Assembly: GCA_903865705.1 (NCBI GenBank)
Contig: CAIPKT010000190.1
Span: forward strand, 1-48,000
DNA from: an uncultured Chlorobiaceae bacterium
Lineage (GTDB): Bacteria > Bacteroidota > Chlorobiia > Chlorobiales > Chlorobiaceae
Direction of reading: 5' to 3'
Length of the DNA: 48,000 nt
Part shown: positions 9,390-31,617 of the stretch, in pieces
How positions within the stretch are numbered: the stretch's first letter is position 1
Layout of the letters: every line of letters starts with the position of its first letter
Program-made: the position numbers and the translations under genes
Notes under the pieces: model-generated
Told to the model about the DNA's origin: nothing
Seen by the model: only the letters and a program-made list of their open reading frames with translations
The model's database searches: none

Positions 9390-10493
9390 ATGAAAAACCT
9401 CGAAACGATAGCCGGAAAGCCAAAAAAGAACAAGATTGTTATTGTGTTGCTTGTTCTTTCTTTTCTTTTGGCACTTGTCTGGTACTTACAGCATCATGAG
9501 TCGCAAAAAGTGATAACCAACAGGGATGTAGAGCGTATTCCAGTTTCGGTTGCTCTTGTATCGAAGGCTGCTGTCCGTGACAGCTTCAGTACGGTCGGTA
9601 CCGTTGAGGCATACAGGGAGGCTGATATCTTTTCTGAATCCCAGGGTCTTGTTCGCAAGGTTTTGGCTGAACCCGGGAACCTGAAAAAGGCAGGAGAAGC
9701 CTTGTTTGTTGTTGACGATGAGCTTGCCACTGCCCGGAAACGGAAGGCGGATGCACACTACAGTCAGGCAAAACGGGATGTGGAGCGTTACAAAAATCTC
9801 TATAGCGAAGGTGCCGTAGCGCTTTCAGCCTATGAATCGGTGCAGTTGCAGCTCGAAGAGGCTGAAGCCGAGTTTATAGCTGCAACCCGCAAATACAGCG
9901 ATACCAGAGTGAAGGCTCCATTTTCAGGCATCGTAACCTCACGGTTTGTTGAGCAGGGGGAGCTGGTGCAAGAGGGAAAGAAGGTTGCGCAGATGGTCGA
10001 TATGATGAAAGTCAAGGTCATCATTTTTGTTCCTGAGCGAGAAATCGTCAAGTTTGTGCCCGGGGTTTTACTGACGGTTACCAGCGATCTTTATCCAAGG
10101 GAAAGTTTCAGTGGAAAGGTAAGTTCAGTTAGTGACAAGGCGGGCCGTGATCACACCTTCAGGGTGGAAGTAGTGCTGCAAAACCCGGCAAAGAGCGTGT
10201 TCAGATCCGGTATGTTCGCCAGGGTAATCCTTATGGGCGATGCTGAGCGTCAGGCCGTTCTTGTTCCGCGCGTCGCGCTTGTTTCAGGGATCAGAAAACC
10301 TGAACTTTTTGTTGTCCGGAACGGCAAGGCTTTTTTGAAACCTTTTGTCGCCGGTATGGAGTTGCAAAAGCAGCTTGAGGTTCTCGGGGGTCTTTCGGTT
10401 GGTGAGGGCGTGGTAATAAGCGGGCAGAACGAGCTTCATGATGGCTCTGATGTGGTTATCATCGACCAGAAGAAGAACCCCACCGAGCCATGA
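9390..10493 (+). CDS. RND efflux system periplasmic adaptor (membrane fusion protein)
   Basis: This 367-residue protein has a single N-terminal membrane span (about residues 15-34) and then a periplasmic body. It has the layout of HlyD/AcrA-type adaptors: a barrel-sandwich half (SQGLVRKVLAEPGNLKKAG), a helical hairpin (about residues 100-160), the returning half ending in RVKAPFSGIVTSRFVEQGE, and a beta-barrel. It would bridge the inner-membrane pump to an outer-membrane channel. The stop overlaps the start of the pump gene (ATGA at 10490-10493), which shows translational coupling. No TolC-type channel gene lies nearby. The substrate cannot be told from the sequence. Confidence 0.92.
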   Translation: MKNLETIAGKPKKNKIVIVLLVLSFLLALVWYLQHHESQKVITNRDVERIPVSVALVSKAAVRDSFSTVGTVEAYREADIFSESQGLVRKVLAEPGNLKKAGEALFVVDDELATARKRKADAHYSQAKRDVERYKNLYSEGAVALSAYESVQLQLEEAEAEFIAATRKYSDTRVKAPFSGIVTSRFVEQGELVQEGKKVAQMVDMMKVKVIIFVPEREIVKFVPGVLLTVTSDLYPRESFSGKVSSVSDKAGRDHTFRVEVVLQNPAKSVFRSGMFARVILMGDAERQAVLVPRVALVSGIRKPELFVVRNGKAFLKPFVAGMELQKQLEVLGGLSVGEGVVISGQNELHDGSDVVIIDQKKNPTEP

Positions 10494-13400
10494 CACTGAC
10501 AGAACTCTCCATAAAACGACCGACGCTTCTTGTCGTGCTCTTTACTGTCCTCGGTATTCTCGGTCTTTTCAGCTACCAGCAGTTGCAGTATGAACTGTTG
10601 CCGAAAATGACACCCCCGGTTGTTACGGTTTCCATCCGTTATCCCGGCGCCTCACCGTCTGAAGTTGAGACATCGCTGACCAAACCGGTTGAAGAAGCTG
10701 TTTCAGCCATTGAAAAGATTTCTTCCATTACCTCTACTTCGACCGAGGGAATGTCGATCGTCGCTATTGAGTTTTCCAATTCCGCCAATATTGAAAAAGC
10801 GCTGCAGGATGCACAGCGTAAGATCAATGAGGTGCGCGACCGCTTCCCGACAGAAGCAAAAGCTCCTGTCATTACCCGGTTTGCACTTGATGAGGCACCT
10901 GTGCTGCGTATCGGAGCAACCTCGTCGCTGCCGGATACTGATTTTTACCAGATGCTCAAGGATAACATTCAGCCTCAGCTTGCAAGTGTTGCTGGCGTTG
11001 GCCAGGTTTATCTGCTTGGAGGACGTGAGCGGGAAATCAGGGTCAATATCGATCTGGAACGGCTCCAGAGTTATAGCCTGACCATTCCCGATGTACTCAA
11101 AGAGGTCGGTAAGGCTAATTTAGATTTCCCGACCGGAAAAATTGATGACCGCGACCGGCAGTTTGTGGTGCGGCTTGCCGGGAAGTTCACGAATCTTGAA
11201 GAGCTGAAAGCGCTTATTCTCCGCTCATCCTCCTTCGGTACAGTCGCTCTTCGGGATGTTGCAGAAGTTGAGGATGGTTTTAAGGAGATCACAACCCTCA
11301 CAAGGGTGAATGGCCGGAGCGCTGTCGGCATTATGGTCATGAAACAAAGTGATGCCAACACGGTTGACGTCAGCAGGCTTACACGGGCAGCGCTTTCCCG
11401 GCTTACCGTTCTTTACCACGACAGGAACCTTTCATTTGATATTGCGCAGGACGCGTCGACCTTTACGATAGAAGCCGTTACTGCCGTTCAGCATGACCTG
11501 ATGCTTGCCGTGCTGCTTGTTGCTCTGGTTATGATGCTTTTCCTGCACAGCCTGCGCAACTCCCTGATTGTCCTTGTCTCAATTCCGACATCGCTGGTGA
11601 CCACCTTTATCGGCATGTATATGTTCGGATTTTCCCTGAATCTCATGACCTTGCTCTCCCTTTCACTGGTGGTGGGCGTTCTGGTGGATGACTCTATTGT
11701 GGTGCTTGAAAATATTTACCGCCATCTTGAACGTGGCGAAGAACCTCGTCAGGCCGCCCTTATCGGCCGAAACGAGATTGGGTTTACCGCACTCTCCATT
11801 ACTCTGGTCGATGTGGTTGTGTTTCTGCCGCTTTCACTGGTCAGCGGTATTGTCGGCAATATCCTGCGTGAGTTCTCCGTTGTTATGGTGATATCAACTT
11901 TGGTCAGCCTTTTTGTCTCGTTCACTTTGACGCCGCTACTTGCATCACGCTTTTCAAAGGTTGAGAAATTTTCCGGCAAGAACCTGCCTGAAAAATTTGC
12001 CATTGCTTTTGAAGGCAACTTCCAGCGTTTTCGCCAGAGTTATCTTGATATTCTTCAATGGAGTCTTCGAAATCCCTACAAAGTTTTTTTCAGTGCGATT
12101 GTTCTCCTGGTAGCCTCTTTCAGTCTGCTTGTTTTTGGTTTTATCGGCGGAGAGTTTATCTCCGTTTCTGATCGGGGAGAGTTTGCCGTCAAGCTGGAGC
12201 TTGAACCCGGAACACCGCTTGCTGAAACCAACCGGCTGACGAGGAGCGTTGAACGCCGTCTTACTGCCATGCCTGAGGTCAAAAAGGTGATGGTGAATGT
12301 CGGCTCTTCGAATGAAGGATTTTTAAATCAGAGTGCGGACAATATTTCAGAAATAAACGTCAAGCTTTCGCCAAAAGAGGACCGGACGCGATCGACTGAT
12401 GCTATCATGCAGGCAATCCGTATCAACTTGCAGGATATTGCCGGCCTTAAGGCCAACATCAATCCGATCGGTATTTTTGGAACGGCCAATGAGACACCGG
12501 TTGCGGTCATTTTGAGCGGTCCCCTGAGAAGCCAGGTAACAAGGGTCGCCGAAACACTTAGAGACAGTGTCAAAACCATTAAAGGAACCGCCGACGTCAA
12601 GCTGACCTCACAGATTGGGAGTCCGGAGATGCGCATTGTGGTCGATCGTGAAAAAATGGCTTCATTCGGCATTTCCATTGCTGATGTCGGAGCAGCTCTC
12701 CGTACTGCCTATGCAGGAGACGAAGCCGGCAAATACCGGGATGGAAGTGATGAGTACGATATCAGGGTTATGCTCGACAAGTCTTACCGTCAAAACACTT
12801 CAACGCTTGCGGAAATAACCTTCCGCACGCCGCAAGGGGATATGGTTCGTCTTGGACAGTTTGTAACGTTTGAACAGGATCGGGGCTATACGCAGTTACA
12901 ACGCAAGGATCGCAATAATGCAGTCTGGGTCAAGGCTCAGGTTGTCGGCCGTCCTGTTGGCAGCATTGGCAATGATATTGAGCGGATCATTGCAAACCTG
13001 AAAAAAAGTGGCATTATGCCTGCAACGGTCTCCTACGCCTATGACTCGGATCTCAAAAGGCAAAAAGAATCGAATTCAACCCTCATGCTCTCTTTTCTTG
13101 TTGCTATTATCTTTGTATATCTTATCATGGTAGCATTGTATGATTCCTATATCTGGCCGATGGTGGTGATGTTTTCGATCCCTCTTGCCATTATCGGAGC
13201 TCTTTTTGCCCTTGCCATTACCGGCAAATCGCTCAGCATCTTTACGATTCTCGGTATTATTATGCTTGTAGGGCTTGTGGGAAAAAACGCAATACTTCTG
13301 GTGGATTTTATCAACAAATTCCGTCTTGAGGGTATGGAACTTTCTGAAGCGATTATTGAAGCGGCCAAAGATCGGCTTCGCCCTATTCTCATGACCACCC

Positions 13401-13660
13401 TGACACTGATTTTTGGCCTTCTGCCGATTGCGCTTTCGGGTAGTTCCGGTTCTGAATGGAAGTCAGGACTTGCTGTCGCGCTGGTTGGCGGCCTTGCCAG
13501 CTCAATGTTTCTGACGCTTCTGGTTATTCCTGTTGTGTATGTCTGGTTCGACAGAGAACCGGGAAAGTTTATTGACTGGATCATTCGGCAGACTATGAAG
13601 TTCATTGAGTGGTTCAATAGCATTTTCATGAAGTCCTTTGTACTGAAAGGGAAGCGGTGA
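10490..13660 (+). CDS. RND multidrug efflux pump, inner-membrane component (HAE1/AcrB-like)
   Basis: This 1056-residue protein shows the twofold architecture of RND pumps: two sets of six membrane spans, each preceded by a large periplasmic loop. The N-terminal span is followed by PPVVTVSIRYPGASPSEVE, typical of the family. The proton-relay Asp pair is in GVLVDDSIVV (Asp400-Asp401). The second half has the conserved GLVGKNAILLVDF segment with its own Lys and Asp. It would export hydrophobic or toxic compounds, driven by the proton gradient. It shares a four-base overlap with its adaptor gene. It ends with a basic cytoplasmic tail. The drug or metabolite it exports is unknown. Confidence 0.94.
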   Translation: MTLTELSIKRPTLLVVLFTVLGILGLFSYQQLQYELLPKMTPPVVTVSIRYPGASPSEVETSLTKPVEEAVSAIEKISSITSTSTEGMSIVAIEFSNSANIEKALQDAQRKINEVRDRFPTEAKAPVITRFALDEAPVLRIGATSSLPDTDFYQMLKDNIQPQLASVAGVGQVYLLGGREREIRVNIDLERLQSYSLTIPDVLKEVGKANLDFPTGKIDDRDRQFVVRLAGKFTNLEELKALILRSSSFGTVALRDVAEVEDGFKEITTLTRVNGRSAVGIMVMKQSDANTVDVSRLTRAALSRLTVLYHDRNLSFDIAQDASTFTIEAVTAVQHDLMLAVLLVALVMMLFLHSLRNSLIVLVSIPTSLVTTFIGMYMFGFSLNLMTLLSLSLVVGVLVDDSIVVLENIYRHLERGEEPRQAALIGRNEIGFTALSITLVDVVVFLPLSLVSGIVGNILREFSVVMVISTLVSLFVSFTLTPLLASRFSKVEKFSGKNLPEKFAIAFEGNFQRFRQSYLDILQWSLRNPYKVFFSAIVLLVASFSLLVFGFIGGEFISVSDRGEFAVKLELEPGTPLAETNRLTRSVERRLTAMPEVKKVMVNVGSSNEGFLNQSADNISEINVKLSPKEDRTRSTDAIMQAIRINLQDIAGLKANINPIGIFGTANETPVAVILSGPLRSQVTRVAETLRDSVKTIKGTADVKLTSQIGSPEMRIVVDREKMASFGISIADVGAALRTAYAGDEAGKYRDGSDEYDIRVMLDKSYRQNTSTLAEITFRTPQGDMVRLGQFVTFEQDRGYTQLQRKDRNNAVWVKAQVVGRPVGSIGNDIERIIANLKKSGIMPATVSYAYDSDLKRQKESNSTLMLSFLVAIIFVYLIMVALYDSYIWPMVVMFSIPLAIIGALFALAITGKSLSIFTILGIIMLVGLVGKNAILLVDFINKFRLEGMELSEAIIEAAKDRLRPILMTTLTLIFGLLPIALSGSSGSEWKSGLAVALVGGLASSMFLTLLVIPVVYVWFDREPGKFIDWIIRQTMKFIEWFNSIFMKSFVLKGKR

Positions 13661-18113: not shown

Positions 18114-21100
18114 TTAGTCGGTGTTAAGGATATTAAAGACGGTTGTTGTCAGTGATTTCATGCTGATGGGTTTCTGGATAAAGTTCACATTACTATCAAG
18201 ATAACTGTTGTGGGCAATAATGTCAGCCGTGTAGCCTGACATAAAAAGTGTTTTAAGCTTCGGACGAGCAGAGAGAAGTATTTTTGAAAGTTCGGCTCCA
18301 TTCATTTCCGGCATGATCACATCCGTAATCAGCAAGTCAATAGTGCCGTTATAGTTTTCAGCACTTTTTATGGCATCTGCGGCTGAAAGGGCATTAAATA
18401 CCTTGTAGCCATTGCGCTCAAGAATCATTATACAGATCGAGAGAATATCCGGTTCATCTTCCACGATCAGGATAGTCTGATGGCCTTTAAGAATTAATGC
18501 CTTCGTCGAGGTTTTCTGAACAGCTTTCGATTGTAGCTTATTCAAGGGAAGACGAATGGTGAAGGTCGTTCCTTTTCCAAGCTCGCTTTGGCATTCGATC
18601 TTGCCGTTATTCTGATTGATTATCCCATAGACTGTTGAGAGACCAAGGCCAGTGCCTTTTTCACCCTCTTTTGTGGTGAAAAAGGGCTCGAAAATATGTT
18701 CTAGATCGTATTGATTAATACCGGAACCATCATCACGAACAGAAAGCGTCACATAGCCTTTGGAGTGATTATCGGGGTTTCCGCATTCAAGAGTAATTGT
18801 GCCGTTACCGCTTATGGCATCACGGGCGTTGACACAGAGGTTGACAAGAATCTGGTCGATCTGCGATGGATCAATGTTTACTTGTGAGTTTTTGCTGCCA
18901 GGTTTCCATATCAGTTTGATATGTTCACCGATGAGCCGCTGCAGCAAGGGAAGCATCTCTTCGATCGCGACATTCAGTTCAAGAATTTTTGGAATGACAA
19001 CCTGTTTTCGGGCAAAGGCAATCAGTTGCTGGGTCAGATTAGCCGAACGGGTTGCCGACTGACGGATGGCTTCAAGATGGGGATAGACTTTATGGGATGT
19101 TTCAAAGAGTTCAAGGGCTATTTCAGAGTGCCCGAGAATAACGAAGAGCATGTTGTTGAAGTCATGTGCTATCCCCCCGGCCAGTTGTCCTATCATCTCC
19201 ATCTTCTGGGACTGCTGAAGCTGAACTTCAAGTTTCTCCTTCTCCTTCTGATTCTTCTTGAGTTCCGTTAAATCGATAAATGAACCAGCAATAAAAACAG
19301 GCTCTTCTTTCTCATTGAACACGATTCTTGCCGTATTACTGATCGTGGCTATAGTCCCATCCATGAGGTGAAAGTCGGCTTCAACATTATTCAGATAGCC
19401 TTGCTTCAGGAGAAGATCCCAGAATGGCACACTATCTTGCGGGAGAACACAGGGCGTTTGTATTTCATTGGAAAACCATAATTCCAGTTCAGAGATCTTG
19501 CACCTTAAAATATCCAGACAGCATTGATTTGCAGTGATGACTTTTCCGTCAAGGGTTAACTGGTATAGTCCAACCGGGACACTGTCAAACAATTCCCGGT
19601 AATTTTTTTCACTCTCTTGCAGAGCTTGCTCGCTTTGCAGCCGCTCCAGTTCTCCGCCTGCACGAACGGAAACCATTTTCAGTACAGCTTCTATAGACTT
19701 GCGATTTTTAAGCGGGCAGTTACCAATCGCGGTAATCAGACCGATTGGTTGACCGGTATGGTCAAAGAGCGTTTCACCAGCATAATTTTCCGCCTGCAGA
19801 TTCCGGAGAACCTGATTGTGCTGACAAAATTGACTCAACTTACTCGCCGGGAAATAACCCATCTTATTGTCGATGGCATAATCGCCGGGTGTATCGGTTC
19901 GGGTATAGACCAAATTATCCTCAAAATGACCATTATTCCAGACAGCCAGCGTTTTGCAGGTCAATCCATCATGATTGAGGCTGTCAATGCGGACAAAGTC
20001 AATATCGAAGTTTATTGCGATGTATCGGGCAAGAGCTTTAAAAAATGGCTCTTTTTGTAAGCCGTAGCTTGAATAAGAAAGAAATAGCTGTAAATCATCA
20101 GTATTTTTTCGCTCAGTGATGTCAATACCTATACCGATCAGGAAAGGGTTACCGTCAGTGATTATTCTTCTGCCAGTCATCAAAAACCAGCGAAACTGGG
20201 GGCCACCATGAACAAGTACTCTTACCTCCAAATTTTCTTCAATGCCATGCTTAAGTACATTCACCAACTTTTCGAGAAAAAATGCCCGATCTTCCGGATG
20301 TATGGTTGAAATCACCAGAGTATCAGCCATCTCGCTTTCCATTTTCCCGACAATATCATCTCGCAGGCAGGCGTTCCACCCCGCATAGTATCCACTGGCA
20401 CCAACCATATAAAATGTGTCGTTAATACTGGCAATAATGGTTTTACTGAAAGCCTGCTCGTTTTTCCCGATCTCCTTTGCAATCTTCAGTTCGGAAATGT
20501 CAATAACGATTCCAGCGTATCGGTTAACCTGACCATCATCTCCAATAAAGGGCGTACCTTTAGTCATTATCCAATGCTCCTGACCGGAAACCAGGACACG
20601 CCACTCAACGACAAACTGCCTCCTGCGTTCTATTGCTTTAAGGAAGATTTGTTCAGTCTGCACCCTGTCTTCAGGTATGATGGATTGAATCCATGTATCT
20701 AAGGTGGCATCGCTGAAGAGTGGATCCAAGCCAAAAAGGCTCCAAATCTCATCCGACCATTGAATGCTGTTTGTCCGTAAATCCCACTCCCAACTGCCAC
20801 TATGGGTTGCATCAATAATGAGTTGCTGGCGTTCATTACTGACGCGCATGCCTTGCTCAATCTTTTTTTGTTTGCTGATATCAGTGAGAATAACACGGCA
20901 CTCCTTGGCGTTATCAATGAGGACAGCGTCAATACGGAAAACTTTATTGTCGATGGCAGATATGCCTGACTGGAATAGCTTGACCTCGCAATAATCAGGT
21001 TCTTTGTGGTCGAATACACTTTTCAGAAGGTTCCGAAAGGTTTTGCGGTCTTCAGCAACAAAAAAGTGTTCCAGCCGTTTTCCGCGCAACAGGGATCTAT

Positions 21101-21422
21101 CAACGTCAAGCATCTTCGTGGCAGTCAAGTTTGCCGAGACGATCTTGCTGTTTGGTGCAATGGTCAGGTATCCAAGTGGAGCGAAGTCATAAAGATCGGT
21201 GTAACGTTCAAGAGTATTTTCCAGTTCTTCTCTTGAGTGAATCAGTTCTTGCCGCTGTTCTTCAAGTTCGACTTGGTGAACCCCCAGTTCATGAATCAAC
21301 CGGATGATATCCTCCGCTGAAAAGGACGTACTCGAGTTTGTCTGTTGACTTGTTGGCCGGTGCAGCTTAGCCTGAGTTTGTAATTCAGAAATGTCATCCG
21401 GATAAGTGCGATTTTGATGCAT
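18114..21422 (-). CDS. Hybrid sensor histidine kinase with multiple PAS domains, a GAF-like domain and a receiver
   Basis: This 1102-residue protein has no clear membrane span. From the N-terminus it shows a short coiled coil, PAS domains near 75-190, 200-315 and 320-440, a GAF-like region near 450-600 and another PAS near 610-725. Then come the HisKA helix with His753 in GGIAHDFNN, a HATPase domain (N-box LVNLCVNARDAI, G-boxes DDGSGI and GTGLGL) and a C-terminal receiver with Asp1034 in LITDVIMPEMNG. The first receiver acids are in LIVEDEPD. It should sense cytoplasmic redox, light or ligand signals and phosphorylate its own receiver. It starts 17 bases after the CheB-CheR gene and is probably cotranscribed. 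No output DNA-binding protein is nearby. Confidence 0.92.
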   Translation of the reverse strand: MHQNRTYPDDISELQTQAKLHRPTSQQTNSSTSFSAEDIIRLIHELGVHQVELEEQRQELIHSREELENTLERYTDLYDFAPLGYLTIAPNSKIVSANLTATKMLDVDRSLLRGKRLEHFFVAEDRKTFRNLLKSVFDHKEPDYCEVKLFQSGISAIDNKVFRIDAVLIDNAKECRVILTDISKQKKIEQGMRVSNERQQLIIDATHSGSWEWDLRTNSIQWSDEIWSLFGLDPLFSDATLDTWIQSIIPEDRVQTEQIFLKAIERRRQFVVEWRVLVSGQEHWIMTKGTPFIGDDGQVNRYAGIVIDISELKIAKEIGKNEQAFSKTIIASINDTFYMVGASGYYAGWNACLRDDIVGKMESEMADTLVISTIHPEDRAFFLEKLVNVLKHGIEENLEVRVLVHGGPQFRWFLMTGRRIITDGNPFLIGIGIDITERKNTDDLQLFLSYSSYGLQKEPFFKALARYIAINFDIDFVRIDSLNHDGLTCKTLAVWNNGHFEDNLVYTRTDTPGDYAIDNKMGYFPASKLSQFCQHNQVLRNLQAENYAGETLFDHTGQPIGLITAIGNCPLKNRKSIEAVLKMVSVRAGGELERLQSEQALQESEKNYRELFDSVPVGLYQLTLDGKVITANQCCLDILRCKISELELWFSNEIQTPCVLPQDSVPFWDLLLKQGYLNNVEADFHLMDGTIATISNTARIVFNEKEEPVFIAGSFIDLTELKKNQKEKEKLEVQLQQSQKMEMIGQLAGGIAHDFNNMLFVILGHSEIALELFETSHKVYPHLEAIRQSATRSANLTQQLIAFARKQVVIPKILELNVAIEEMLPLLQRLIGEHIKLIWKPGSKNSQVNIDPSQIDQILVNLCVNARDAISGNGTITLECGNPDNHSKGYVTLSVRDDGSGINQYDLEHIFEPFFTTKEGEKGTGLGLSTVYGIINQNNGKIECQSELGKGTTFTIRLPLNKLQSKAVQKTSTKALILKGHQTILIVEDEPDILSICIMILERNGYKVFNALSAADAIKSAENYNGTIDLLITDVIMPEMNGAELSKILLSARPKLKTLFMSGYTADIIAHNSYLDSNVNFIQKPISMKSLTTTVFNILNTD

Positions 21423-21439
21423 AAGGAGTTCTTCCCGAT

Positions 21440-24400
21440 TCAGATGTTGTCAGAAATCTGGTTTGGGTCGTTAATTTCAAAAAATGTCGTACAGAGTTGA
21501 TAAGTTTTTTCAGTTCCCTTTTGCAATCTGTTCGATGCACTGACTTTAATCCATCGGATCTTCTGATCCTGAGGATGGACAATGCCCATAACAACACCAT
21601 TTACAGGCTTGCCTGAGCGCAAGGCGACTACGGCAGGGTGTTTCTCATGAGGAAAGTCGGATCCATCGGTCTGGACAAGTTTCCATGGAAGGTCGGCAAC
21701 GTTGTAACCTTGCATTTCTTGCATGGAAATTCCTGTAATCCGCTCGGCTTCTCGATTTGTTATGACAATATTTCCTTCTGAATCCTGAAGCATGATTCCA
21801 ACGGGCATGGTATCGATCAAAAACCGGAAATTTTTCTCAATATCCCGCAGATTCTGCTCCAGTTTTTTGGCGACACTGATATCAGTAAAGGTAATCACAA
21901 GCCCGTTGATGCGGTTTTCATGTGTACGGTAAGGCATGATTTTGACGGTAAACCAGCGGTCTTTGCTTGCGGAAACCTGTTTTTCACTGAAAACAAGAGT
22001 ATTGAGTACCTCAAGGGCATCGTTAGCCAGGTTGGGATATTCCAGATCGGTAACAATATCCGTTATAGGGCGTCCGACATCGCTTGCGATCAGTTTGATG
22101 ATGGCAGATGTCTGGTTGGTGAAACGGCGTATGTTAAGTTTATCATCAAGAAAAAGAGTTGCAATGTCAGTGCTGTTCAGCAGGTTTTTCATGTCGTTGT
22201 TGGCCTCTGAAAGGTCAGTCACTTTTGACTGCAGTTCATGGTTCACGGTCTGCAACTCTTCGTTCAGTGACTGCATTTCCTCTTTTGATGTGGTCAACTC
22301 TTCATTGGTGCTCTGCATTTCCTCATTGGCCGATTGCATCTCTTCATTGGTGCTCTTGAGTTCCTCTTCTGAGGTCTGCATCTCTTCACGTATGGTGATA
22401 ATCTCTTCTTTGGCTCTTTTAAGGTCCTTACTAAGAGAAATAAACTTGCTGTTGTTGTTTACATCTGCAAGTGGAGTCTGACCAGAAGTATCTTGTTCTT
22501 TCATTGCAACGTCAGCAAAAACAATCATGATCATGTTTTTGAGGGTATCCGGATTTTCAATAAGCTTTACCGTCAAATCAACGGGATGCTTTTCTCCGTT
22601 TGATTCGACGATCACTCCCTTTTTGGAGGCCTCTCCTTTCTGGCGAAGAACATTTCCGAAAAGAAGATTCAGCTCGTAGCGAATCCCTTCCCTTGCCATA
22701 GCTAAAATATTCAGGTTGGCTTTTCCTGTTGCCGGTTCCAAATATTTGCCAGTACGACCGTTGATAAACAGAATCTCTCCATTCTCATTTGTCAGGACTG
22801 CCGCAGGAGTATAATGCTGGAGCAGGATCTTTTCGCTTATAGTTTTAAGATTAAGTTCGGATGTTGTTGGTTTGATCTGTGATTCCGGAATATTCGGCAT
22901 ATCCTTTAAATAATTGGTAAAGGAAGATGGGAAATCAAAAGGTTCAGGCTTGACTGACTTATGAATATGAAGGAAAAAACGGGCTTTGCTGTCAAGCGGT
23001 TGAAACAGTTGGTTATTGGTACCGACCGTTTCAGAGCTACCAAGAAAGAGAATTCCTCCGGGATTCAGGCTGTAATGAAACAATTGTATCAGTTTTTTCT
23101 GGAGATCATTCTCCATGTAGATCAAAAGATTGCGGCAAATGACAATATCGATTTTGCTGAAAGGTGGATCCATAATGATATTATGGGGTGCAAATACAAT
23201 TGAATCGCGAATTTCTCTTGTAATCTTGTAACCCGGGTCATCTTTTTCAAAGTATTGTTTGATACGGCCGGGAGAAACATCCGCAGTAATATTGGCGTGA
23301 TAATATCCGGAACGAGCCTTATCAATTGCATTTTTGTCGAGGTCCGTTGCAAATATCTGGAGTTTAAAATTACCGGTATGTTTCATTGTGGCAAGGACTT
23401 CTCTGAACACAATAGCAAGAGAATAGGCTTCCTCTCCTGTTGAACACCCTGCAACCCATGCCCGAATAATACCGCCAGATGGTCGGGAAGCAAGGATAGA
23501 TGTAATACCTTTTTGTTTAATGGATTCCCAGGCATCTGAATCCCGAAAAAATCTGGTTACACCTATCAGTAATTCCTTGAAAAGCAGCTCAATTTCATTT
23601 GGATTCTCCTGAAGATAACGGACATAGCTGGAAATTTTTTCAATTTCATGAATACCCATGCGTCGTTCGATACGGCGATAAATCGTGTTCTTCTTGTAGT
23701 GTAAAAAATCATGCCCTGTCTTTGTACGCAGAAGAATAATAATTTTATTAAGCGAACTCAGGGTTTTCGTTTCTAAGGATGATGCAACAGGTATTGAGAT
23801 GGCGGGAACATATTTCAAATAAGAAATAATTTTTGACGGGAGAGACTCCGCTGCTGCTACGATGTCAGCCAGTCCTTCATCAATAGCGCTTTGGGGCATT
23901 CCGTCAAACTTCGATGAAGCTGGATCCTGTACAAAAACGCCACCACCTTTTTCCTTGATGGCGCGTAGTCCAAGTGTTCCATCGGAACCCATACCAGAGA
24001 GAATAACTCCTATGGAATAGTGCTTAAGGTCGTCCGCCATGGAACGGAAAAAGAAATCAATTGGAAGCCTCAGACCACGAGGTTTGACCATATCAAACAG
24101 ATATAATACTCCGCGCAGTATCGTCATGTTCTGGTTTGGAGGAATCAGATAGACATGATTTGGCTCAATTTTAAGATTGTCGGTGACCTGGCAGACCGGC
24201 ATTTCGGTAACCCGCTGAAGCAGTTCAACCATAATTCCCTTGTGGGTAGGATCAAGGTGCTGTACGATGACAAATGCCATGCCGCAGGGATAAGGAACAT
24301 TCTTCAGAAACAGCTCGAGTGCTTCAAGTCCACCGGCTGAAGAACCAATGCCAATAACAGGAAAAGGAATTGCTTCTGGAGGTATGATGGTAATGTCTTC

Positions 24401-24442
24401 AGCCTCTTCTATTTGATGATGGACGGGTGTCTTTTTTTTCAT
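21440..24442 (-). CDS. CheB-CheR-PAS fusion signalling protein
   Basis: This 1000-residue protein joins a CheB methylesterase domain (residues about 27-215; Ser34/35 in GIGSSAGG, His62 in VQHLDP, Asp near 160 in GMGSDG) to a CheR methyltransferase (about 225-490; VAGCSTGEEAYSLA and VICRNLLIYM). Next are a PAS-like region (about 535-650), a heptad-repeat coiled coil (about 667-744, repeats of EEMQS/NEELQ type) and two more PAS domains. The usual receiver of CheB is absent. Such fusions are thought to add and remove methyl groups on sensory proteins outside flagellar chemotaxis. No MCP, CheA or CheW gene is present here. With the downstream hybrid kinase it forms a two-gene unit. Confidence 0.92.
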   Translation of the reverse strand: MKKKTPVHHQIEEAEDITIIPPEAIPFPVIGIGSSAGGLEALELFLKNVPYPCGMAFVIVQHLDPTHKGIMVELLQRVTEMPVCQVTDNLKIEPNHVYLIPPNQNMTILRGVLYLFDMVKPRGLRLPIDFFFRSMADDLKHYSIGVILSGMGSDGTLGLRAIKEKGGGVFVQDPASSKFDGMPQSAIDEGLADIVAAAESLPSKIISYLKYVPAISIPVASSLETKTLSSLNKIIILLRTKTGHDFLHYKKNTIYRRIERRMGIHEIEKISSYVRYLQENPNEIELLFKELLIGVTRFFRDSDAWESIKQKGITSILASRPSGGIIRAWVAGCSTGEEAYSLAIVFREVLATMKHTGNFKLQIFATDLDKNAIDKARSGYYHANITADVSPGRIKQYFEKDDPGYKITREIRDSIVFAPHNIIMDPPFSKIDIVICRNLLIYMENDLQKKLIQLFHYSLNPGGILFLGSSETVGTNNQLFQPLDSKARFFLHIHKSVKPEPFDFPSSFTNYLKDMPNIPESQIKPTTSELNLKTISEKILLQHYTPAAVLTNENGEILFINGRTGKYLEPATGKANLNILAMAREGIRYELNLLFGNVLRQKGEASKKGVIVESNGEKHPVDLTVKLIENPDTLKNMIMIVFADVAMKEQDTSGQTPLADVNNNSKFISLSKDLKRAKEEIITIREEMQTSEEELKSTNEEMQSANEEMQSTNEELTTSKEEMQSLNEELQTVNHELQSKVTDLSEANNDMKNLLNSTDIATLFLDDKLNIRRFTNQTSAIIKLIASDVGRPITDIVTDLEYPNLANDALEVLNTLVFSEKQVSASKDRWFTVKIMPYRTHENRINGLVITFTDISVAKKLEQNLRDIEKNFRFLIDTMPVGIMLQDSEGNIVITNREAERITGISMQEMQGYNVADLPWKLVQTDGSDFPHEKHPAVVALRSGKPVNGVVMGIVHPQDQKIRWIKVSASNRLQKGTEKTYQLCTTFFEINDPNQISDNI

Positions 24443-28000: not shown

Positions 28001-28701
28001 CCATCTCTATGGCGGCGCTCCATGTGCTGCTTGAGCTTGGTGTGAGGGTGGTACTTCCTCCTCCGTTTCTCTGCTGTGGTTTTCCGGCGCATGTTAACGC
28101 CAAGACAAACCAGTATTCGAGCATTGTGCTGCGTAATACCGTGCTTTTCAGCCAGATCAGGGAGATGTTCTCCTATCTCGATTTTGATGCCTGCGTTGTG
28201 ACTTGCGGCACCTGCATGGAAGGGCTTGATGCAATTGAAACCGGTCGGATTTTTGGTGGAAAGATCATCGATATTGCAGATTATGCTCTTGATAAAGGGA
28301 TGAAGCTGGTTGGCAAGGGGGATTATCTGTATCACGCACCGTGCCACGATTCGCTTTCAGGAAAAGCGCGTGAAACCCTGCACCGTCTGGGAGGTTTTGG
28401 CAGTGTGACTGCTGTGCCGCACTGCTGTTCAGAGGCAGGAACGCTGGCCCTTTCGCGTCCCGATATTACCGATTCCATGCTTCATCGCAAAAGGGATTCC
28501 ATGAAGGAGCTTATGCATGGACGAGAGAGGGCTGTCATTCTGACCAACTGTCCTTCGTGTGTGCAGGGGCTTGGAAGAAATCTTGATCTTGGTATCGAGC
28601 CACAGCATATTGTTGTGGCTTTGGCTGAAAAACAGTCGGGTTCCGATTGGATGGAGCTCATGCTCATTCAGGCTTCAAGGGGGACCGTGGTAAGCTTTTA
28701 G
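25045..28701 (+). CDS. Large FAD-linked/Fe-S oxidoreductase (D-lactate/glycolate dehydrogenase type, with DUF3683-like N-terminus)
   Basis: This 1218-residue protein fuses domains that are separate subunits in many species. Residues 1-125 look like the DUF3683 lead. An FAD-binding domain follows with PRGAGTGLTGGAVP near 210, then the FAD-oxidase C-terminal domain with HMHAGDGNVHV near 657-667 and GEHGIGVTK near 701. A ferredoxin-like part has CIRCGKCKTDC from residue 779 and CTICHKCLKPCP near 841. The end carries two cysteine-rich CCG-type modules (FPGCG, LCCGFP, HAPCHD, HCCSEAG). It should oxidise a 2-hydroxy acid such as D-lactate or glycolate and pass electrons through two Fe-S clusters to a membrane acceptor. 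The substrate is inferred from the family. AAAAGG about ten bases upstream supports the start. Confidence 0.9.
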   Translation: MTLTTALEAAKASSNASREIPFNYTSAGDRQAISFLLGPDIVQMLDELRDLRVTGRSARLLMGIIGEILIHRRNPYLFQELVNSSARRRRLFERAFAELDTIADMGNGETRISSIVGAVREQLERFRSAIEKTPELRRRLKRELGAVVGVKNVLFDPFSLAAHATDATDWRLHLPVAVVTPDEEGQVAPLITAIAALGLNIIPRGAGTGLTGGAVPLRSRCVIINTEKLNRIRGISVRDFQLENGQISPASVIDVEAGVVTEKAMEEADEHGLVFATDPTSEWACTVGGNIAENAGGKMAVRWGTCIDNLLEWRMAMPSGENWTVKRADHQLRKIMHEDTVTFEVWNGSGKRIDRIELLGTDIRKKGLWKDITNKALGGVPGLQKEGTDGVITSALFVLYPKYPEKRTLCLEFFGPDMDEASRVILELSKIFPLHSENREALLALEHFDDEYIRAIDYKVKAPRAQTPKAVLLIDIAGKSQAEVQSGVDRVERLLEPHPNTLMFLARDNAEGVRFWADRKKLGAIARRTNAFKLNEDIVIPLEALAEFSRFIDKLNIEEERYAQRRFVVHARDILLTSKVSGDGGQFASKIPAGVELCRLFSEKIDAESEDSLRSLAVVQELCNGLGELVQGYPDLQAALDGSYQHVRDRRIVLATHMHAGDGNVHVNVPVLSNDRPMLERADKVIDHVMEKVVSLGGVVSGEHGIGVTKLKYLDPAIVEELSRYRRRVDPKGIMNPGKLDDYEVLDYIFTPSFNRLELEAHILRRAQIEELSKKVDYCIRCGKCKTDCCVYYPARGMFYHPRNKNLAIGSLIEALLFDAQRERTTDFALLKWLEEVADHCTICHKCLKPCPVDIDSGEVSVLEREILSEWGFKHSSPVTELTLRYLESRSPVFNALFRRAVLRVGGAVQRSGNRLSSLLLPENDPLAFYPLKLLSSPVPPVPDGTLRDVLPECGPDQVLVFEPAGVVTSNVFYFPGCGSERMNSSISMAALHVLLELGVRVVLPPPFLCCGFPAHVNAKTNQYSSIVLRNTVLFSQIREMFSYLDFDACVVTCGTCMEGLDAIETGRIFGGKIIDIADYALDKGMKLVGKGDYLYHAPCHDSLSGKARETLHRLGGFGSVTAVPHCCSEAGTLALSRPDITDSMLHRKRDSMKELMHGRERAVILTNCPSCVQGLGRNLDLGIEPQHIVVALAEKQSGSDWMELMLIQASRGTVVSF

Positions 28702-28705
28702 TCGC

Positions 28706-30115
28706 CTAATCGTCGTCTCCCCGTTTGCTCCCGCTGTTGCCATTGCGATGGCATTTGATGCAGTTCTGATAGTTATTAATACCCTCCTCACGATGCACTG
28801 CGGCCATATTTGATGGCGTGTGCTCGTGGCAGCCGTAGCAGGTATACTTTTTATAATTGCCAGGATCGGTGTGGCATGTCTTGCAGCTTGCCTGATGATC
28901 ACGGTCGAGCCTGAAATAGCGGTTATGGTTGAATGTTGCCGGTTTCCATTTTCTGGTACCATGGCATGCCGCGCAGTTCGCTTCTGACTGACGATGCAGA
29001 TTGTCATTCGGCTGGTCGGCCTTGTGGCAACTGATGCACTGCTTTCCTCCTGCCAACAGTTTGTGGTTGAATGTCGCCGGTTTCCATTTTGTGGTTTTAT
29101 GGCATACGGCACAGGATGCAGTGACGTCCCGGTGCATCTTGTCATTCGGCTGGTCGGCCTTGTGGCAACTGATGCACTGTTTCCCTTCTGCCAACAGTTT
29201 GTGGTTGAATGTTGCCGGTTTCCATTTTGTGGTTTTATGGCATACGGCACAGGACGCAGTGACATCACGGTGCAGCTTGTCATTCGGCTGGTCGGCCTTG
29301 TGGCAACTGATGCACTGTTTTCCTCCTGCCAACAGTTTGTGGTTGAATGTTGCCGGTTTCCATTTTTTTGTACTGTGGCAGACCGCACAGCTTGCGGTCA
29401 TTTCACGGTGCAGCTTGTCGTTGGGTCGGTCAGCCTTGTGGCAACTGATGCACTGTTTTCCTCCTGAAGCGACAAGCTGTTTATGATCGAATGCTGCCGG
29501 TTCCCATTTGTTTGTGTTATGGCATTCTGCACAGGTTGCCGTTACCTCGCGGTGCAGTTGGTCATTTGGCTGGTCAGCTTTATGGCAGTTGATGCACTGT
29601 TTTCTGTCTGCTGCAGCAATCTGTTTGTGGTCGAATGTTGCCGGTTTCCATTTTTTTATGCTATGGCACCCGGAGCAACTTCCTTTGGCATACCGATGGA
29701 GCGGATCTTTTGGTATTTGATTTTTGTGACAGGCGATGCAGTCTTTCTGGAGTACTGTCGTCAGTGATGCATGCTTGAAAGTTTTGATCGCTTTTGATGC
29801 ATCCCCCCCCTTGTGGTCGGTATGGCATTCAACGCAGGAGCTGGCAGAAAGTCCTTTATGAAAAAGTACCCTGGAGGAATCTTTTGGAAGCAAAGCTCCA
29901 GCGACATTTTTGATGCCGATGGCATCCGGTTTGTGGCAGTTGATGCATTGAACCGAAGTTACCCCTTGAAAAGGTGTGTGACAGCTCAGGCAATCTTTTG
30001 TCAGTTTCTGATGCCCTTTCATCAGTGTGCCTGGGTCGAGCAGTAAATCAGGAAAAGCTATAGCAAGGGCTGCAAGGATAATGGCTGACGTGATAAAAGT
30101 AAAAAGCGGTTTCAT
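28706..30115 (-). CDS. Multihaem c-type cytochrome with 18 CXXCH motifs
   Basis: This 469-residue protein has an N-terminal hydrophobic segment (residues about 5-25) acting as signal or anchor, followed by eighteen CXXCH haem-binding motifs (I counted each). The first five are spaced irregularly; the middle is made of 46-residue units with two motifs each (CAVCH and CISCH followed by KADQPND); the last three are again irregular. Many other histidines (HKLLAGG, LHR, FNHK) can serve as distal ligands. It should form a long haem wire in the periplasm or beyond. The upstream gene, four bases away, encodes a b-type-like membrane protein that would feed it electrons. It converges on the FAD oxidoreductase. 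The tail is basic and low in complexity. Confidence 0.93.
   Translation of the reverse strand: MKPLFTFITSAIILAALAIAFPDLLLDPGTLMKGHQKLTKDCLSCHTPFQGVTSVQCINCHKPDAIGIKNVAGALLPKDSSRVLFHKGLSASSCVECHTDHKGGDASKAIKTFKHASLTTVLQKDCIACHKNQIPKDPLHRYAKGSCSGCHSIKKWKPATFDHKQIAAADRKQCINCHKADQPNDQLHREVTATCAECHNTNKWEPAAFDHKQLVASGGKQCISCHKADRPNDKLHREMTASCAVCHSTKKWKPATFNHKLLAGGKQCISCHKADQPNDKLHRDVTASCAVCHKTTKWKPATFNHKLLAEGKQCISCHKADQPNDKMHRDVTASCAVCHKTTKWKPATFNHKLLAGGKQCISCHKADQPNDNLHRQSEANCAACHGTRKWKPATFNHNRYFRLDRDHQASCKTCHTDPGNYKKYTCYGCHEHTPSNMAAVHREEGINNYQNCIKCHRNGNSGSKRGDDD
29003..29697 (-). repeat. Tandem in-frame repeats, period 138 bp, inside the multihaem cytochrome gene
   Basis: The marker GTCATTCGGCTGGTCGGCC starts at 29003, 29141 and 29279, exactly 138 bases apart. 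Diverged copies follow at 29417 (138) and 29561 (144). Each unit codes for 46 residues and two haem motifs. The first three are nearly identical, while those nearer the gene's 5' end have drifted. This points to recent expansion by slippage or unequal crossing-over. Confidence 0.9.
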
Positions 30116-30119
30116 CAGG

Positions 30120-30698
30120 TTATTTCCAGTTCCAGAAGAAAAATATGGATAGAATATGGATTGTCGTTAACGCAAGCAGCACAGAGACCATCGGCATATG
30201 CACCTTTCTCCAGTTTTCAAGTATCTTGATGGTCAGGGTATCCAAGTATTGCTGCTGCTCAATTTCCTCATCGACACTGGCATTGATTCCAAGCTGTTGG
30301 ATTTTTAACTTTACCTCATCCTTGACCTTCTTGAGCAGATATTGCCCGACATGGCCGCTGGCTGTTACCACCATCATCAACGCTGTCGCCATCCATGGCA
30401 GAATGGCATTGAAATGAATCCCCGAGTGAACAAAAATCATCAGGGTACCGACCCAGCCGGTATTGCAGTGGAGCTTGAGAAAAAATTTCAGCGCACCGCT
30501 TTTGATTATCTTTTTTTTACGGGCAGAATAACCAAAGGATAAGGCAAGAAAAACAGTCCCTGCGATTCCAAGATATCGGCCTACCCATACAAGATTCGCA
30601 ATATGCAGGATGTAGTCAAGTGATATTCCTGCGGTAATCAGCAGGAGATACGAGATCGTCAGCGGTAATGTTCGTTGTACAAGAAGAGACTTCCACAT
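30120..30698 (-). CDS. Small membrane protein with cytochrome-b-like paired histidines
   Basis: This 192-residue protein has about five membrane spans. Two histidines in one helix region (His77 and His91) and two in the last helix (His167 and His181) are each 14 residues apart, the spacing used by b-type cytochromes to hold two stacked haems between two helices. Further histidines are His95 and His116. A hydrophilic, charged loop (about residues 122-160) joins the helices. I infer a dihaem quinol-interacting subunit that passes electrons to the multihaem cytochrome encoded four bases downstream. I cannot name the family; ferric-reductase-like or cytochrome b561-like proteins are the nearest in plan. 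Confidence 0.68.
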   Translation of the reverse strand: MWKSLLVQRTLPLTISYLLLITAGISLDYILHIANLVWVGRYLGIAGTVFLALSFGYSARKKKIIKSGALKFFLKLHCNTGWVGTLMIFVHSGIHFNAILPWMATALMMVVTASGHVGQYLLKKVKDEVKLKIQQLGINASVDEEIEQQQYLDTLTIKILENWRKVHMPMVSVLLALTTIHILSIFFFWNWK

Positions 30699-30995: not shown

Positions 30996-31229
30996 TTGAT
31001 TTTGCCTCCGCATATCCCCGATGGAGCCTATTATGTGCTTGCTGATGTTTCCCGTATTCCTGGATCAACAGGAAAGGAACATGCAATCCACATCTTGCAG
31101 AAAACAGGGGTGGCCAGTGTTCCCGGTGGGGCATTTTATCACGACAGGAGAGGGGAGAAGTTGGTTTGTTTTTGCTTTGCAAAAGAGGATGTGGCGCTCG
31201 AAGTAAAAAAACTGAAACCGAAGCTATAA
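30996..31229 (+). pseudogene. C-terminal remnant of a class I/II aminotransferase
   Basis: About 75 residues with the ending of a PLP-dependent aminotransferase: PDGAYYVLADVS, HILQKTGVASVPGGAFY and LVCFCFAKEDVALE. The PLP lysine, the N-terminal domain and all of the large domain are missing. Upstream the frame is open only to a stop at 30930 and codes for nothing recognisable. The first codon is at best a TTG. The last codons and stop lie within the 3' end of the RNase P RNA gene on the other strand. I call it a decayed gene fragment; expression as a short protein cannot be excluded. Confidence 0.75.
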
Positions 31230-31617
31230 GCCGAATTCTGTTCATTAACCGGAAAAACCGGTTAATGCTGCAGCCATTTATCTGATGCGGCTTACCCGAG
31301 AACTCTCCTTTCGGAATTGAACGGGCCGCTCTTTTTCCCCGGAGGGAAAAGTCCTCTTATTTAGCCTTGCTTCGGGGAGGTTTGCCAAGCACATTCCATT
31401 ACTGTAATGTCTGGTGGTCTCTTACACCCCCGTTTCACCCTTACTCCGGTTGCCCGAAGCGGTCTGTTTTCTGTTGCACTATCTGTGACGAGCGGCTTGC
31501 GCCGTCATCCCCGGGCTTGAGTCTTTCGACTCTCGACCGGCACCCTGCCCTGTGAAGTTCGGACTTTCCTCTGCGCAACCTTACGGCTGCACGGCGACTG
31601 CACACTTGCGGTTTCAG
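31212..31617 (-). ncRNA. rnpB: RNase P RNA (type A)
   Basis: The minus strand carries the conserved 5' core GAGGAAAGTCC (31561-31571 on the + strand), the central ACAGGG/GATGACGG region and the 3' ACAGAATTCGGCTTAT element (about 31225-31242). The two ends form the P1 helix: bases 31605-31617 with 31212-31223, one base bulged. A run of seven T follows the 3' arm on the minus strand, so P1 probably also helps terminate transcription. The RNA is about 406 nt and is the catalytic subunit that trims tRNA 5' ends. Confidence 0.94.

Follow-up and report, generated by a model that had tools for sequence, protein, structure and literature searches.

Two adjacent genes on the minus strand of the window, by which we mean the whole 48,000-nucleotide stretch of DNA analysed here, most probably encode a membrane-bound electron conduit. 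In this reading, to which we give a probability of roughly 0.7, the upstream gene product (B) would be a dihaem b protein exchanging electrons with menaquinone, and the downstream product (C) a multihaem cytochrome c tethered in the periplasm as a wire or store, with the flow of electrons mainly outward. If true, most green sulfur bacteria have, in addition to Cyc2 and the sulfur enzymes, a pathway dedicated to linking the quinone pool with the periplasm.

The Gene Pair and Its Conservation

Gene B (30120..30698) encodes a 192-residue membrane protein with five helices, a predicted dihaem b, and gene C (28706..30115) a 469-residue cytochrome c of the class III or c7 type with 18 CXXCH motifs. 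The start of C follows the stop of B by 4 nucleotides. These features of the two reading frames, together with the histidine pairs 77/91 and 167/181 in B, had been pointed out in an earlier note on this DNA, and all of them are confirmed. The window comes from a draft genome of 2.48 Mb, of which it is one contig; the genome is rated 100% complete and has a single copy of B.

The pair is almost universal in the Chlorobiaceae, the family of 86 genomes that was searched and to which all counts for Chlorobiaceae refer. B was found in 71 of the 86 genomes and C in 73; 70 genomes carry both genes and 12 carry neither (Fisher p = 4e-11 for co-occurrence, uncorrected for phylogeny). The four exceptions, one genome with B only and three with C only, are all fragments at contig ends. 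Moreover, relatives with an intact sequence have B next to C in essentially all cases, and this holds for the Chlorobiaceae, other Bacteroidota, Calditrichota and Nitrospirota alike. The number of haems in the adjacent C ranges from 8 to 20 in the Chlorobiaceae and from 4 to 12 in the other lineages: 10 in other Bacteroidota and in Calditrichota, and 8, 12, 9 and 7 in Nitrospirota, the most distant group of which has 4–7. The earlier note had proposed a dihaem-b-like membrane protein paired with a multihaem cytochrome, and had raised the prospect that homologues of the two genes might never occur together; the almost constant company of the two genes supports the pairing, as a conserved unit, and is the opposite of the latter.

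Some copies of B are damaged. In L098 (G072:C31), G075:C227, G065:C36 and G071:C131, we found B copies with internal stops or short fragments of B only, those in G065, G071 and G075 being extra copies. Such copies suggest duplication and decay of the B-C pair.

The Membrane Protein

B of the window has histidines at positions 32, 77, 91, 95, 116, 167 and 181, and the members of the pairs 77/91 and 167/181 are each 14 residues apart. Among 73 distinct relatives of B, six of these histidines never vary (H32, H77, H91, H95, H167 and H181), and 72 of the relatives also have H116. An AlphaFold model built on a 43-row alignment (mean pLDDT 70.5) has helices at residues 5-33, 37-60, 69-95, 99-135 and 143-187. 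Both pairs lie on predicted helices, His77 (30468..30470) and His91 (30426..30428) on helix 3 and His167 (30198..30200) and His181 (30156..30158) on helix 5, and not outside the membrane helices, an outcome that the earlier note had considered. The first pair makes up an HX13H motif; the second belongs to the longer motif W163-X3-H167-X13-H181, in which the tryptophan is kept in 73/73. Helix 4 carries an SGXXG motif (S114-G118, 30345..30359), again in every one of the 73 proteins. The four histidine ligands and SGXXG are also found in 13 distant relatives, which retain both HX13H pairs. Distant relatives of B were also seen on alphaproteobacterial plasmids, of Roseomonas and Methylocystis (L141 5051-7741 and L142 5207-7654), beside genes for 2Fe-2S proteins or ferredoxin reductase and with no multihaem cytochrome.

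Since the loop between helices 2 and 3 is strongly positive (six K/R and no acidic residue; the loop between helices 3 and 4 has no K/R), the N-terminus of B would be in the cytoplasm. By the positive-inside rule, H77 and H167 are then expected on the cytoplasmic side, and H91 and H181 on the periplasmic side. In the well-known dihaem b proteins, such as ferric reductase/NOX, cytochrome b561 and the cytochrome b of the bc1 complex, two stacked b haems are expected. Most likely B would hold two stacked b haems as well, one between H77 and H167 near the cytoplasmic face and the other between H91 and H181 near the periplasmic face, and would exchange electrons with the menaquinone pool.

No Pfam family matches B at the family's own cut-off, with cytochrome b561 (PF01292) reaching 12.2 bits against a gathering score of 30.1. 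The ferric reductase family (PF01794) is found at E<=0.1 in 8 of 43 relatives of B, the best at 4e-5, and the B of the window is not among the eight. Searches of the PDB by sequence returned nothing meaningful for B, and searches by structure (Foldseek and VIA-align) gave no confident match. Cytochrome b6 (Z 8.3), b561 (Z 7.9) and the hydrogenase cytochrome b were near the top of the structure search, and these matches were dropped as proof because unrelated helical bundles reach similar scores.

The Cytochrome and Its Modular Haem Array

Cytochrome C has exactly 18 CXXCH motifs, whereas shuffles of its residues averaged 0.2 and never exceeded 3 in 2000 trials. It has 19 further histidines, all of them invariant wherever they can be aligned among relatives, and judging from this conservation each haem of C can be bis-His ligated. 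Haems with bis-His ligation are expected to be of low potential, and so should be those of C. The 18 haems would form a linear wire or a charge store in the periplasm.

At its N-terminus, C has a hydrophobic helix (residues 1-21, 30053..30115), directly followed by the conserved motif FPxxLLxPGxLxxGH. Several relatives have K, R, T or V immediately before FP, and there is no conserved signal-peptidase site; the helix is therefore likely to be an uncleaved membrane anchor, by which C would most likely be tethered beside B. In Pfam, C matches the class III and c7 families well above their gathering scores (PF14522, 88.6 vs 24.8 bits; PF02085, 76.3 vs 22.9 bits), while NapC/NirT (PF03264) stays below its cut-off, at 15.7 bits against 24.1. 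Sequence searches of the PDB gave one weak match, the c7-like domain protein 8k9e (E 3.5e-4). An AlphaFold model of C from 25 sequences reached a pLDDT of 45.6 and was set aside.

The arrangement of the haem sites follows a simple plan: three capping haems, n dihaem modules of about 46–48 residues each, and another three capping haems, 6+2n haems in all. In the window n = 6. The N-terminal cap (29822..29992) has its CXXCH motifs at residues 42, 57 and 94; the six modules of the central array (28925..29749), a tandem repeat of 138 bp, run from the motif pair 126/147 to the pair 360/381, with a spacing of 21 inside each module and linkers of 25–27; and the C-terminal cap (28748..28885) has its motifs at residues 411, 426 and 452. 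The spacing rule 15, 37, 32, 21, (25-27, 21) x n-1, 30, 15, 26 applies to nearly all relatives of C, including the 15, 37 of the first cap and the 30, 15, 26 of the last. In the Chlorobiaceae n varies from 1 to 7, and complete copies have 8, 10, 12, 14, 16, 18 or 20 haems; the odd numbers of 9 and 11 in single drafts look like the result of a lost motif or a frameshift. Along the wire, the fixed N-terminal cap would be next to B, followed by the variable dihaem modules, and the fixed C-terminal cap would meet the partner.

The central modules are recent tandem duplications, since they resemble each other more than they resemble the modules of relatives. Modules 4 and 5 of the window are 95% identical in DNA, as compared to 84% between them and the nearest relative, and in the single-contig genome behind L096 the identity between modules 2 and 4 is 99%. 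The first and last modules are mostly closest to the modules at the same position in relatives, whereas the central ones are often closest to each other. Close relatives often differ in haem number: C has 18, 16, 14 or 10 haems in the window and in relatives with a B 83–90% identical to that of the window, and B is constant. A tree built from 63 B proteins requires at least 33 changes of haem number, against a mean of 37.6 for shuffled numbers (a value as low was found in 5 of 200 shuffles), so the haem number is only weakly conserved by descent. An origin of the repeat array in assembly error was rejected because single-contig genomes also differ, with 10 haems in L092 and 16 in L096, which shows the variation to be real. 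With a repeat of 138 bp, however, the exact module counts in fragmented short-read drafts, the window included, may be off.

Taken further, B-C could be a near-universal quinone-to-periplasm conduit of green sulfur bacteria with a haem wire of tunable length, in which evolution gains and loses dihaem modules, by tandem duplication and loss, between two unchanging caps and on an unchanging membrane partner, and the result is a natural series of 8–20 haems. This broader proposal is a tentative one, for which we would not claim even odds. If it holds, a natural length series of C on a constant B would offer an experimental handle on how the rate and reach of a haem wire, and the charge it stores, depend on chain length.

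Relation to Known Systems

B-C belongs to a known, though unnamed, kind of gene pair. In the main text of He et al. 2017 (PMC5566968), conserved, unnamed inner-membrane proteins are described that have five helices, with an HX13H motif on helix 3 and another on helix 5, and are encoded beside multihaem cytochromes of varying haem number. The pairs grouped there as ‘Other multiheme cytochrome c’ usually come without a porin, and C. ferrooxidans is listed among them. B shares with these proteins the five transmembrane helices, as predicted by AlphaFold, an HX13H motif on each of helices 3 and 5 (73/73) and an adjoining gene for a cytochrome c of variable haem number. The order of the genes is different: there, the membrane gene is usually downstream of the cytochrome gene, whereas here B is upstream of C. 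The earlier note did not recognise the pair as a named system; the kind had in fact already been described, but left unnamed, in that work. New in our analysis are the cap-module-cap plan, the recent expansion of modules and the near-universality in the Chlorobiaceae, none of which appears in the main text of He et al. (PMC5566968), as well as the linkage to two-component systems in some lineages (see below). Genome papers on the Chlorobia (PMC8302410, PMC8125076, PMC5374249) name cyc2 alone in this context and do not mention B-C.

The same work (PMC5566968) proposed a quinone-active dihaem b for the inner-membrane proteins of its PCC3 and PCC4 conduits. As far as these are described there, they have in common with B the SGXXG motif on helix 4, WX3HX13H on helix 5 and HX13H on helix 3, and PCC3 also has large repetitive multihaem cytochromes. 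Both conduits differ from B-C in having a porin in the cluster, since neither a porin nor an extracellular cytochrome is found beside B-C at the loci examined, and in having a tryptophan before HX13H on both helices; on helix 3 of B, this position is F in 71/73 proteins and L in two. In addition, the inner-membrane protein of PCC3, at about 300 residues, is longer than B.

The decahaem cytochromes MtrA, PioA and DmsE share with C the multihaem repeats of the class III type. The NCBIfam model of DmsE matches C at 69 bits and a 10-haem relative at 37 bits, both far below the cut-off of 192.2 bits, and the decahaem proteins are fixed at ten haems in contrast to the 6+2n of C. A search of the 86 genomes for porins of the MtrB/PioB family gave no match, with the control set likewise silent. 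Geobacter has the c7-repeat ‘nanowire’ cytochromes (e.g., GSU1996), in which a wire is made of repeated small c-type modules with three haems per unit. C is likewise a series of small c-type modules, but its unit has two haems instead of three and its partner is a predicted b-type membrane protein. On the side of B, ferric reductase/NOX, cytochrome b561 and the cytochrome b of bc1 also have two histidine pairs 14 residues apart on two helices (He et al. 2017, PMC5566968), whereas B has no flavin or FeS domain in addition to lacking a Pfam match at cut-off.

Direction of Electron Flow and Possible Roles

We favour an outward flow, in which B-C would hand electrons from menaquinol to an acceptor in the periplasm or further out, because the bis-His haems of C should be of low potential and because the pair occurs in non-phototrophic lineages. 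In the reverse arrangement, C would take electrons from outside, donated by Fe(II), by sulfur compounds or by a cell in partnership, and B would pass them to menaquinone, for use in photosynthesis or in reverse electron flow. Such a model was put forward by He et al. for related inner-membrane proteins of Fe oxidisers, and C. ferrooxidans is among the genomes they list with such a pair; in the same text, however, most porin-less pairs are judged less likely to take part in extracellular transfer (PMC5566968). In favour of an inward conduit, we did not find dsrA in the window's genome, rated complete as it is, and the organism is therefore probably without the reverse-Dsr route of sulfur oxidation. 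Among high-quality genomes, B is present in 17/17 without dsrA and in 36/47 with it (p = 0.03, shared ancestry uncorrected). We do not rely on this link, which is weak (p = 0.08 when all genomes are taken) and confounded by phylogeny. The pair is also present in most dsrA-carrying relatives and in lineages that are not phototrophic. Moreover, low-potential bis-His haems are a poor fit to Fe(II) at neutral pH. On balance we consider an inward conduit unlikely.

The earlier note had suggested Fe(II) oxidation, sulfur compound oxidation or interspecies electron transfer as the service of the pair, and none of these finds specific support. A role specific to Fe(II) or to partner cells is not supported because cyc2, with 40% of Chlorobium mOTUs reported to carry it (PMC8125076), is rarer than the pair, and because the pair is found whether or not dsrA is present, and in Nitrospirota and Calditrichota too.

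The variable length of C bears on a different question, whether conduction or storage is its main task. C could be chiefly an electron capacitor, with the haem number setting how many electrons can be stored under a fluctuating supply of light or acceptors, and with B charging or draining it. The frequent changes of haem number between close relatives on a constant B are in keeping with this, and they argue against the bridging of one fixed gap, which should keep the length constant. A linear wire that tolerates changes in length accounts for the same facts, however, and errors in the assembly of genomes from metagenomes could account for part of the variation; storage as the chief task is, to our judgement, quite improbable. 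Least probable of all, and hardly to be expected, is a defence of these strict anaerobes against oxidants, in which menaquinol electrons would pass through B-C to a periplasmic protein reducing peroxide or O2: one Calditrichota operon (L057) has a rubrerythrin with a signal-like N-terminus between the two-component kinase and B, but no rubrerythrin was seen beside the pair at the other loci examined, and a chain of as many as 20 haems looks too long for the purpose.

Genomic Neighbourhood

At loci of the window type, C is convergent with a gene for a 1218-residue DUF3683/FAD-oxidase/CCG protein, the two stop codons being 4 bp apart (28701-28706), and some 510 bp upstream of B there is a bacterial RNase P class A RNA (31211-31614), likewise on the minus strand. 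Neither of these neighbours suggests a function for B-C. A scan for promoters and terminators found no excess above shuffles. Neither the window nor its close relatives nor L134-L140 showed a porin next to the pair; L137 alone has a TonB-dependent receptor, at a distance of about 2 kb from B, and no conserved outer-membrane partner adjoins B-C at the loci examined.

A recurrent neighbour of another kind is a CusRS-like response regulator and kinase, which precede B-C in other Chlorobiaceae, at two Calditrichota loci and at one Nitrospirota locus, three phyla in all (L057 4428-9374; L127 2231-6429; L120 1838-5645; L043-L055; L134-L136). In the Chlorobiaceae and Calditrichota cases, DUF4405 or DUF2231 stands ahead of the two-component system. 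On another contig of the window genome (L133, G000:C28, 6060-9702), a DUF4405-regulator-kinase block is directly followed by a second C, with 10 haems and without B; in the relatives L134-L136, the same block carries B and an 18-haem C. As the second C of the window genome has no B beside it, C may also work apart from B.

A few other observations were made along the way. In one Bacteroidota locus (L113 6073-8652), a cytochrome of 859 residues with 34 CXXCH motifs is encoded just upstream of the B-C pair. Elsewhere in the window, a fused CheB-CheR-PAS protein (1000 residues) and a PAS-kinase-receiver hybrid (1102 residues) are encoded in tandem on the minus strand (18114-24442), and an RND efflux pump, consisting of an HlyD-type adaptor and an AcrB-type transporter, on the plus strand (9390-13660).
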